64,000 bases of DNA, from the NCBI GenBank assembly GCA_944381935.1, contig CALWMN010000004.1, positions 124,001 to 188,000 on the forward strand, read 5' to 3'. Source of the DNA: an uncultured Mediterraneibacter sp. (GTDB lineage Bacteria > Bacillota > Clostridia > Lachnospirales > Lachnospiraceae). Under the pieces are notes generated by a model, which saw only the letters and a list, made by a program, of their open reading frames with translations, did not search any database and had not been told where the DNA came from. Below are positions 46,952 through 49,488 of this stretch, one piece after another (the first letter of the stretch is position 1; each line of letters begins with the position of its first letter). Both the position numbers and the translations under genes were made by a program.

Positions 46952-47782
46952 TCAAAGTATTTTCGATAAAAAATCTTTCAGCCTGGGATCTTTTGGATGG
47001 CCGAAGAACTCCTCCGGCGCAGCCTCTTCCTTGATCTGTCCGTCGTCCATAAAAATAACTCTTGAAGCAACCTCGCGGGCAAATCCCATCTCATGGGTCA
47101 CTACAACCATCGTCATCCCGTCTCTGGCAAGGTTCTTCATCAGATCGAGGACTTCCCCGACCATCTCCGGATCAAGCGCGGATGTCGGCTCATCAAACAG
47201 GATCACGTCCGGGTTCATTGCCAGGGAGCGGATGATTGCAACCCGCTGTTTCTGCCCGCCCGACAAAGTAGACGGATATGCATCGGCCTTATCATCCAGT
47301 CCGATCCGCTTCAGAAGAGAAAGCGCCTGTTCCCTTGCCTGTGCCCTGATCTGCTCCTTTGTCGTTGTGACCGGGATCAGCTCTTCCTTATTGTCGCTTC
47401 CCCGGAACAGGTTTTTAAAACTCGCGATACGGTTTTTCCTCTTCGCCTTTTTCAGATCTTTGCATCGCAAATATGCAGGCGCCATCATAATATTCTGGAG
47501 CACGGTTTTGTTGTTGAACAGATTAAAGTGCTGGAATACCATCCCCATATGGCGGCGGTGCAGATTGATGTCGACCTTCATATCGGCGATGTCCACGCCT
47601 TTGAAGATAATACTGCCCTCTGTCGGGTCTTCCATACAGTTCAGGCAGCGCAGGAAGGTGCTTTTTCCGGAACCGGAAGGACCGAGCACTGCAACGATAT
47701 CGCCTTTGTTGATCGTGATATCGATCCCTTTGAGGATCTCAAGATCACCGAAGCTTTTCTTAAGATTAATTACGTCTATCAC
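46952..47782 (-). CDS. amino-acid ABC transporter ATP-binding protein (GlnQ-like)
   Basis: 276 residues. Walker [10 protein letters not shown] (34-42), Q-loop VFQHFNLF near 82-89, signature LSGGQKQR near 173-180, Walker [13 protein letters not shown] near 193-204 and the H-loop VVTHEMGFA mark a polar amino-acid importer ATPase. The usual length is about 240; the surplus is a lysine-rich insertion at roughly 107-147, between Q-loop and signature. The start is GTG, with AAAGGAG 11 bases upstream, and overlaps the permease end by 17 bases. It powers uptake of the ligand bound by the protein encoded at 48595. Confidence 0.92.
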
Positions 47783-48476
47783 TCTTCTTCAGGCTCCTTT
47801 CCATCAATTTTATCATCAGGGTAATGATCAGCACGAGCGCTATGTAGATCAGCGCCATGACCAGATACGGCACCATAAATTCATAGCTGTTGCTTCCGAT
47901 ATAGTTAAAGGCGACATACAGGTCTGCTGCGCCTACAAAGCTTACCACCGATGTCTCTTTGATCAGTGAGATAAACTCATTCCCCAGCGTGGGAAGGATA
48001 TTCTTAACCGCCTGCGGTATGACAATCATACGCATGCTCGCCCCAAAGCTTAGCCCTACGGCCCTTCCGGCTTCCATCTGTCCCGGATCTACGGACTGGA
48101 TTCCGCTTCGCATAATCTCCGAGATATATGCCCCGCTGTTCAATCCGAAGACCATCATCGCCACCTGTACGCCGGTCATCCTTCCTCCAATGACCGGGAG
48201 AAGAACATAATAGAATACAAGAAGCTGTACTACCATCGGCGTACCCCGGAAAAGGGCTACATAGCAGCTGCATATGCCATTGAGCACCCGGGGGAGCAGC
48301 CTGTATTTCGGAAGGACTCTCACCGTTGCGATCAGCGTACCGATCAAAATACCGATGATCAGACCGCATATCGCAATCAAAAGTGTATTCTGAAGACCTT
48401 CCACAACCCTCACATATCCGTTCTGCTCCAGAAAAATCTCTATAAACCTGTCTACCTTCTGACTAAAATTGCCCAT
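47766..48476 (-). CDS. amino-acid ABC transporter permease (HisM/GlnP-like)
   Basis: 236 residues, five membrane helices. The opening [20 protein letters not shown] and the cytoplasmic EAA loop [23 protein letters not shown] interrupted only at usual positions identify the polar amino-acid permease family; [18 protein letters not shown] is also diagnostic. It forms the membrane channel with the ATPase whose start it overlaps. It lies after a hairpin that separates it from the binding protein gene. Confidence 0.93.
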
Positions 48477-48594: not shown

Positions 48595-49488
48595 CTATCT
48601 CATCTCATTGATCGACTCGGCAATTGCGGCTGCCGGAGCTGCATCAATGATGACATATTTAATGTTTCCGTTGAGCATATCCTGTACCGCAAGTGATCCG
48701 CTCTTGTACGTCTGGCATGTCGCCGGGAGTCCCGGGAATCCGAGATCTTCGCTTCCCTCTACATAAGAGTTCCCTGTCGTTCCCTGCTGCACGCCGATGA
48801 TATCCGATGAAGTCAGCTCATTGAGCAGCGCTGCAACGGAATCCGCATCCGTACAGTCGTCAAATGTCGTGTCGTTGCTCGGAACGATCAGGCGCTGTGA
48901 TGCCTCATAGTACGGATCCGTAAAGGTTACATACTCTTTTCTGTCCTCACTGATCGTAAGCCCTGCCATGGCAATGTCACATTTCTGCTGGCTTACGGAC
49001 AGGCACACTGCATCGAAATCCATATTCTGGATCACGAGCTCCTTGCCGAGTTCTTCCGCCAGAAGGGAAGCGATCTCCATGTCGATTCCGTAGTAGTCTT
49101 CGCCCTCCGTGTACTCAAACGGCTCAAAAGCAGCGTTTGTCGCAACTACAAGCTGATCCTTTGAATCATCGAGCTGTGCGGACTTTACTGCCGACGGTTC
49201 TCCGCCTCCGAAATATTTATCACAGATCTCATCTAGCGTCCCGTCTTCCTTGATCTTGTTCACAAATGTGTTCACCTGCTCCAGAAGTTCCGGCTGTTCC
49301 TTGTCAACGCCGAACGCATACTCTTCACTTGTCAGGTCGATATCAATCACCTTTGCTGTTACAACTCCGCTGTTGTCCGAACCGGAATTATCTGAACCGG
49401 TAGTCTCGTTATTTCCGCTGCCTCCGCATCCTGCCAGCAAACCTGTCAGAAGCGCTGCGGTAAGGCCGGTCGCTAAAAGCTTCTTCAT
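48595..49488 (-). CDS. amino-acid ABC transporter substrate-binding lipoprotein, apparently circularly permuted
   Basis: 297 residues from the ATG at 49488 (GAGGA 7 bases upstream; an ATG five codons earlier overlaps that site). A lipoprotein signal ends LTGLLAGC (Cys21), then a Ser/Asn/Gly linker. Residues 44-94, with LTSEEYAFGV and EDGTLDEICDKYFGG, read like the usual C-terminal end of this family. Only after a linker does the normal N-terminal start appear, LVVATNAAFEPFEY near 113-126. The normal order then runs through MDFDAVCLSV and AMAGLTIS to DAAPAAAIAES, where the protein stops and where others continue into the LTxEEY segment. The fold is probably preserved. It binds a polar amino acid outside the membrane. 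Confidence 0.88.
   Translation of the reverse strand: MKKLLATGLTAALLTGLLAGCGGSGNNETTGSDNSGSDNSGVVTAKVIDIDLTSEEYAFGVDKEQPELLEQVNTFVNKIKEDGTLDEICDKYFGGGEPSAVKSAQLDDSKDQLVVATNAAFEPFEYTEGEDYYGIDMEIASLLAEELGKELVIQNMDFDAVCLSVSQQKCDIAMAGLTISEDRKEYVTFTDPYYEASQRLIVPSNDTTFDDCTDADSVAALLNELTSSDIIGVQQGTTGNSYVEGSEDLGFPGLPATCQTYKSGSLAVQDMLNGNIKYVIIDAAPAAAIAESINEMR

Follow-up and report, generated by a model that had tools for sequence, protein, structure and literature searches.

A gene in the window, the 64,000-nucleotide stretch of Mediterraneibacter DNA analysed here, encodes a predicted and most likely working amino-acid binding lipoprotein of an ABC importer, which we judge with a probability of about 0.87 to be a circularly permuted member of the type II (SBP_bac_3, 'cluster F') class; both class names are those that we take to apply to the SBP_bac_3 family. 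The blocks of the window protein follow one another in the order D1b-D1a-D2 instead of D1a-D2-D1b, with no block missing, and on this ground the protein is classed as a permuted relative of SBP_bac_3 and not as an ordinary member. The same order, referred to below as type A, is widespread in Clostridia. This permutation and a second one require several separate order changes on the tree.

The gene lies on the minus strand at positions 48595-49488 and encodes 297 amino acids; an upstream in-frame ATG would give an alternative product of 302 amino acids. A plus-strand reading of the same positions is broken by several stops and was discarded. The signal peptide ends in LLAGC, a lipobox, which is the mark of bacterial lipoproteins, and its cysteine C21 is invariant in 52/52 rows of the main type A alignment. 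The tether measures ~5 to ~30 residues in those relatives in which the lipobox was placed cleanly by a regular expression. By the known topology, block D1b presumably spans the second hinge strand together with the two final helices of lobe 1. Residues V101, S103, A104 and D107 of the join between D1b and D1a are invariant in the main type A alignment; the length of the join is nearly constant in the main type A clade and greater in some minor type A proteins. The chain terminates past the last helix of D2, at the point where linear relatives continue into D1b. The initial annotation, which named no strand, had read this layout correctly in outline: LTSEEYAFGV, which it assigned to the C-terminal end of the family, begins at residue 52, and LVVATNAAFEPFEY, which it took for the usual N-terminal start, comes later in the chain, beginning at residue 113. 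Its placing of the chain stop at DAAPAAAIAES was right as to the approximate site and short by five residues (INEMR).

Table 1. Features of the importer operon and of the binding-protein chain, in window positions.
Feature	Positions	Strand	Support
Lipoprotein signal peptide, residues 1-21, to lipobox cysteine C21 (LLAGC)	49426..49488	-	C21 and G22 invariant in 52 rows of main type A alignment (A1)
Tether, residues 22-43, Ser/Gly/Asn-rich, length variable	49360..49425	-	pLDDT <50 at 21-26 and 28-37
Block D1b, residues 44-97, homologous to C-terminal block of linear SBP_bac_3	49198..49359	-	Linear-only profile 172-220; PF00497 97-131
New join of ancestral C- and N-termini, residues 98-108	49165..49197	-	Spacing between D1b and D1a ~11-13 positions in almost every row
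Block D1a, residues 109-202, ancestral lobe 1 N-terminus through hinge strand 1	48883..49164	-	Linear-only profile; PF00497 1-98 at residues 113-237
Block D2 (lobe 2), residues 203-297	48598..48882	-	Linear-only profile; model helix 283-296
Permease, polar amino-acid uptake type, next operon gene	47766..48476	-	PF00528 7.8e-22; TIGR01726 HEQRo_perm_3TM above cut-off
ATPase, GlnQ-like, overlapping permease end	46952..47782	-	PF00005 7.6e-36; GlnQ best NCBIfam match, below cut-off, in two stretches

The binding protein heads an operon and is followed by the permease and then the ATPase, as in ABC importers for polar amino acids, and we infer that the substrate is a polar amino acid. The best NCBIfam matches of the permease are the cystine, EhuC, EhuD and GlnP permeases, all below their cut-offs. 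For the binding protein, 14 NCBIfam models were listed, every one of them scoring under its cut-off. The ATPase of the window carries an insert of ~34 residues between the Q-loop and LSGGQ. This interval measures 89-91 residues in 112 rows of main-clade type A operons and 55-86 in the other rows listed, some loci being counted repeatedly; it is 55 residues in 47/49 type B, 8/11 linear and 5/5 minor type A rows.

The binding protein matches PF00497 (SBP_bac_3) with an E-value of 6e-33 (113.8 bits against a cut-off of 26.4). When the organism's own genome was searched, two matches lay on the minus strand in the same frame, profile positions 1-98 covering G000:C4:172706-173152 and positions 97-131 covering 173207-173404. 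Positions 97-131 thus match upstream of positions 1-98, so that the end of the profile leads the gene. A second profile of 223 positions was built from 36 linear proteins only, in order to avoid circularity. Its positions 3-168 align with residues 109-292 (177.1 bits) and its positions 172-220 with residues 45-93 (46.3 bits, E 4.7e-16), leaving only positions 1-2, 169-171 and 221-223 unmatched. These two matches, exchanged in order, are what the initial annotation had predicted of a profile search, and no linear alignment of the ordinary kind that reached a complete C-terminus, as a conventional protein would give, was found: the linear alignment ends at position 168 of 223 and the remainder sits on the N-terminal side.

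Rotation of the chain at residue 108 gave one match over positions 4-220 of 223 with 233.8 bits, compared with 177.1 bits for the native chain. In a series of rotations of the chain from residue 44 on, made at every second position, the highest single match (234.1 bits, against 177.8 unrotated) came from the cut at 108, and cuts from 94 to 108 gave 232.9-234.1 bits. The segment 44-97 by itself scored 51.3 bits, and the best of 2000 shuffled versions scored 9.0 bits. Consistently, the sequence of AncQR (PDB 4zv1), among the best 60 of 97 hits, matches in two swapped blocks, with chain residues 11-174 at query residues 112-289 and 183-232 at 45-94. The earlier proposal of a circular permutation, in which the order is swapped and nothing is lost, is therefore borne out by the presence of all three blocks and by the better fit of the rotated chain.

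A structural model of the window protein, obtained with AlphaFold2 from 52 aligned sequences of which the window protein is one, has a mean pLDDT of 88.7 and a pTM of 0.76. Over residues 41-100 the block means amount to 88-98, and in the signal and tether to 45-71; residues 121-130 (pLDDT 77) and 171-180 (83) lie below the rest of the core. Block D1b is modelled as strands 45-48 and 55-57 and helices 66-81 and 84-93. With the model as query, Foldseek ranks amino-acid binding proteins first (4prs, E 5.4e-11). Among the 50 matches listed, 44 span 171-195 columns, to chains of mostly 212-242 residues, and the other six span 205-211 columns with an rmsd of at least 7; in 49 of the 50, the TM-score normalised to the target's length is 0.41-0.61. 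Such short alignments are expected, because an aligner that keeps the chain order cannot place D1b. The model supports a predicted packing in which residues 44-94 would fill the missing end of the fold in the same chain. The short join at residues 98-108 would also fit an exchange between chains, in which D1b completes lobe 1 of a neighbouring molecule and a domain-swapped oligomer forms on the membrane. We consider such an exchange very improbable, given the confidence of the single-chain model over residues 41-100 (a monomer alone was modelled) and the nearly constant length of the join in the main clade.

A scan of genome contigs yielded 226 relatives of the window protein; all 80 that were kept have the swapped order, which the scan may have favoured as it was queried with the permuted protein's own peptides. 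The kept relatives come from Mediterraneibacter, Dorea, Blautia, Roseburia, [Ruminococcus] torques and others, and the permease and ATPase lie downstream in 79 of the 80 loci, the remaining one being on too short a contig. In the window's family, full-length type A proteins in a single frame were found in at least 33 of 299 genomes, a count that excludes genome G195, where a linear tandem bridges the query; in the class, full-length ones were found in at least 36 of 391 genomes, in 12 families. A search of the phylum at E 1e-41 matched 2 of 249 genomes, the window's own and one of the same family. The family and class counts, like those given below for type B and for a 25-genome census, were read by hand from the matches listed and are lower bounds.

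In each of the long blocks D1b, D1a and D2, most codon changes relative to three relatives affect the third position. Against locus L036, for example, changes at positions 1/2/3 number 9/2/31 in D1b, 11/0/46 in D1a and 17/10/57 in D2. This third-position excess indicates that D1b, D1a and D2 are maintained by selection. An ordinary linear chain whose C-terminus has decayed and whose N-terminal extension is unrelated, or an error of assembly, would account for neither these codon changes nor the identical order in 80/80 kept loci, nor for the swapped blocks in the linear-only profile, PF00497 and AncQR matches. We give such an explanation practically no chance, and it was rejected on the linear-only profile and the related loci.

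One relative of type A was seen in another setting. Locus L125:537-2657 (+) in genome G231 (wider region L215) encodes a 706-aa protein kinase (PF00069) in which a membrane helix and then a type A permuted binding domain were recognised by eye. From its sequence this protein is possibly a receptor kinase whose sensor is permuted. Among 200 family genomes, no second kinase fusion of this type was found.

Many of the weaker matches of the type A search in the family are proteins of a second order, D2-D1b-D1a, with lobe 2 first and also with lipoprotein-like starts. This order, type B, occurs in at least 62 of 299 family genomes and at least 15 of 291 class genomes, and is commoner than type A in the window's family. 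The family count comprises single-frame matches from profile position 11 or lower to 262 or higher, together with G257 (match from position 26, blocks of type B), and leaves out G195, G167 (partial), G209 (frameshift) and G091 (from position 22); in the class search, eight more genomes match only over positions 99-263. In 20 family genomes type B lies within a frame of 501-556 aa, a length that fits a fusion to the permease. Three long type B frames (G070, G080 and G131) were read, all of them ending in permease-like sequence, and the blocks of a fourth (G257) were classified.

Type B was found a second time in another subfamily (L077:6554-7357), with five full-length relatives among 200 genomes. 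The other 26 genomes matched by this search were hit by one block or by two separate blocks, 55-75% identical, and those relatives that were fetched are linear. The window's own genome holds a linear paralogue of this subfamily (L001), whose blocks are 71 and 62% identical.

In a census of PF00497 in 25 family genomes, at least 13 of the 66 counted frames are permuted, in at least 12 of the 25 genomes including the window's own: five of type A, four of type B, three of the second type B and one tandem type B. Linear frames comprise 48 shorter than 640 aa with one PF00497 match from position 13 or lower to 118 or higher, each longer than 570 bases, and five more, one of which (G008:C23) has D1a alone detected. 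The census omits frames of 640 aa or more, except a 1143-aa importer of G012, as well as the fragments G005:C30 and G006:C228 and the broken G019:C2.

The importer of G012, at L320:2106-5537 (+), is a whole importer in a single 1143-aa chain, D2-D1b-D1a-D2-D1b-D1a followed by permease and ATPase. It thus holds two binding units in tandem, in permuted phase. Judged by block order, a linear domain could form from the central D1a-D2-D1b, and the outer pieces could make up the other. Two further loci depart from the simple type B gene. At L211:1407-2988 (+) in G209, a type B-permease gene is spread over two overlapping frames, owing to a frameshift or a sequencing error; at L128:936-2687 (+) in G112, two tandem type B genes adjoin, the second of which fits the type B profile better.

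For phylogenetic analysis, the blocks of 73 chosen proteins were put in linear order before the tree was built. Locus L211 and units with D2 spans above 170 residues were excluded beforehand, and 292 units were reduced to 116 by dropping near-copies (>80% identical in D1a+D1b within a type) and those with too-short blocks. A quick tree, from which 16 more were removed by hand, had 100 rows and gave long-branch warnings; the 73-row tree drops another 27, for example L125, L116, L196, L197, L198, L212, L213, L250 and the linear L002, L003 and L111. On the 73-row tree the three orders need 9 changes (bootstrap 8-10), compared with 34.1 for shuffled labels, and the 100-row quick tree also gives 9. 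Type A accounts for four changes, all forced by starred branches, and type B for five, three of them so forced. In AU tests of clades that were named after the tree had been seen, a single clade of all type A rows was rejected (p 4e-5), as was a grouping of the four minor type A rows (p 4e-4), and a union of L118 with L163 and L207 was borderline (p 0.0501). Because the separation of L118 from L163 and L207 is only borderline, type A may have three origins.

Linear and permuted operons stand side by side on this tree. The linear L289 and the permuted L293 are 80% identical in D1a-D2 and 65% in D1b, with permeases at 77% and ATPases at 70%. The corresponding values are 79, 58, 74 and 77% for L286 and L287, and 71, 65, 64 and 73% for L291 and L292. 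The linear L294 and the type B L295 are 67% identical in D2-D1b, 74% in D1a, 65% in the permeases and 69% in the ATPases. One ancient permutation per type followed by later reversals to linear, in place of many separate events, would be compatible with the change counts, which do not separate gain from loss, and support is weak at several of the deep forks around the type B rows. We regard this history as improbable, since starred forks in separate regions of the tree place linear rows beside permuted ones and a single type A clade is rejected by the AU test. Any return to linear order would also be a permutation at those cuts, so that the recurrence stands.

In the sequences, the independent events cut at the same two places. 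Type A chains from different parts of the tree stop past the helix after the motif D..P (EPAKAFVAENNK, EPAKAYVAEANK, EPAKAFVAASK, QPSLMITASMNK and APAAAIAESINEMR), and their domains begin right before the strand KILD/KVID or its like. Type B chains stop two to five residues past the strand QVIIV or its like, and they start with the piece that comes after this strand in linear relatives. In the topology of GlnBP the hinges lie near residues 85-89 and 181-185. By analogy, each of the two cuts would fall in lobe 2 immediately past one of the hinge strands, and in that position both crossings would be kept, lobe 1 would be continuous and both termini would lie on lobe 2. The lipid anchor, which the initial annotation expected on a different face of the protein relative to the permease, has thereby probably left lobe 1 for the hinge side of lobe 2. 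Ligand would be captured by lobe closure and delivered to the permease, as in GlnBP and HisJ.

It is tempting to suggest that Clostridia have repeatedly and adaptively re-cut the fold at two hinge-side loops, under selection for the geometry of the tether and not just by tolerance; we put this forward tentatively and consider it doubtful. Neutral repetition, with tandem genes at hand and loops that tolerate chain ends, is at least as likely. If the cuts are adaptive, each would shift the membrane tether, or the point of permease fusion, from lobe 1 to lobe 2, and would alter either the presentation of the lobes to the permease or the swing of lobe 1. The operons would then form a natural series, with about nine replicated order changes, for measuring the mechanical role of the tether.

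Permutation is recurrent in the DNA methyltransferases. Permutation by tandem duplication is a standard model, applied to saposin/swaposin and to DNA methyltransferases, and intermediates have been reported for the latter (PMC3320104). These proteins are unrelated to the window protein and share with it the proposed route. The likeliest route here would likewise be tandem duplication and trimming: the binding-protein gene would be duplicated in tandem, the end of one copy would be fused to the start of the next through a short join, and the redundant front and end pieces would be lost. Adjacent copies do occur. Locus L286 holds two adjacent linear genes followed by permease and ATPase, and the second of these genes (tree row L223) is sister to the type A L208 and near sister of the type A L287. 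A 967-aa gene of G195 (L119:910-3813 (-), identical with L199:4910-7813 (-)) fuses three linear binding domains, closely alike by eye, to a permease, with D1b followed by D1a as in the window protein. No trimmed leftover blocks were found within up to 450 bases on either side of the binding-protein genes fetched by then; these flank scans show only neighbouring genes and one gene split by a frameshift (L211), and no partly trimmed or one-sided intermediate was found in them.

The N-terminal block might alternatively have been fused on from another binding-protein gene, the original C-terminal block being lost separately. For three of the four sister pairs, the identity of D1b (65, 58 and 65%) is below that of D1a-D2 (80, 79 and 71%). 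Type A-linear pairs with D1a identities of 0.8-0.9 have D1b at 0.73, 0.63 and 0.57, where 11 linear pairs average 0.71 (sd 0.04). Among pairs with D1a at 0.7-0.8, D1b averages 0.54 in type B-linear pairs (112) and 0.63 in linear ones (56). The likeness of D1b in linear/permuted pairs is thus equal to or lower than that in linear pairs, which self-duplication does not predict; it could reflect relaxed constraint after the cut or the derivation of D1b from another copy. Relaxed constraint would lower D1b as well, however, and D1b is more variable than D1a in linear pairs too. Moreover, D1b of L287 is nearer to its near-sister copy in L286 (58%) than to the tandem neighbour of that copy (41%), and D1a-D2 behaves likewise (79% vs 50%). 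We hold the fusion of two genes to be unlikely, and even a protein assembled from two paralogues would have a permuted architecture.

The closest known systems are the linear SBP_bac_3 proteins GlnH/GlnBP, HisJ, ArgT and ArtJ, members of a family that we take to be type II rather than type I, which resemble the window protein in all three blocks and in operon context. GlnH/HisJ-type proteins have the order D1a-D2-D1b, whereas the window protein has D1b-D1a-D2 and its chain would end on lobe 2, not lobe 1. A D1b-linker-D1a junction also occurs in PDB 6h30, a glutamine transporter chain, presumably from Lactococcus, with tandem domains fused to the permease, and query residues 57-215 match straight across it. 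In 6h30, however, complete linear domains stand on both sides and the chain is unpermuted. Among the open-licence PMC papers listed in our literature searches, none on natural permutation in type II amino-acid binding proteins was seen.

A natural permutation of a two-lobed ABC binding lipoprotein has been described for TpMglB-2 (Tp0684) of Treponema pallidum, a glucose-binding protein for which the name 'Type Ic / Cluster Bc' was proposed; it has relatives in treponemes and Gram-positive bacteria (PMC4990184). In TpMglB-2, strands that lie near the N-terminus of E. coli MglB sit near the C-terminus, a fourth crossing is added, and its authors propose membrane anchoring as a possible reason for the permutation (PMC4990184). 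TpMglB-2 shares natural permutation with the window protein and differs in having the type I/cluster B sugar-binding fold; the window family is type II, with two different cuts, several events and both crossings apparently kept. The window protein, whose Pfam family is SBP_bac_3, falls outside the Type Ic / Cluster Bc definition as given there.

The idea of a permuted binding protein, met in our searches of the open-licence literature only for the type I TpMglB-2, now reaches the type II amino-acid class, and the surprising part is its repeated, convergent occurrence. Routine profile annotation does not reveal the rearrangement. Sister operons with matching cuts are replicated natural experiments, in which chain order and anchor position can be set against folding, lobe closure and transport.
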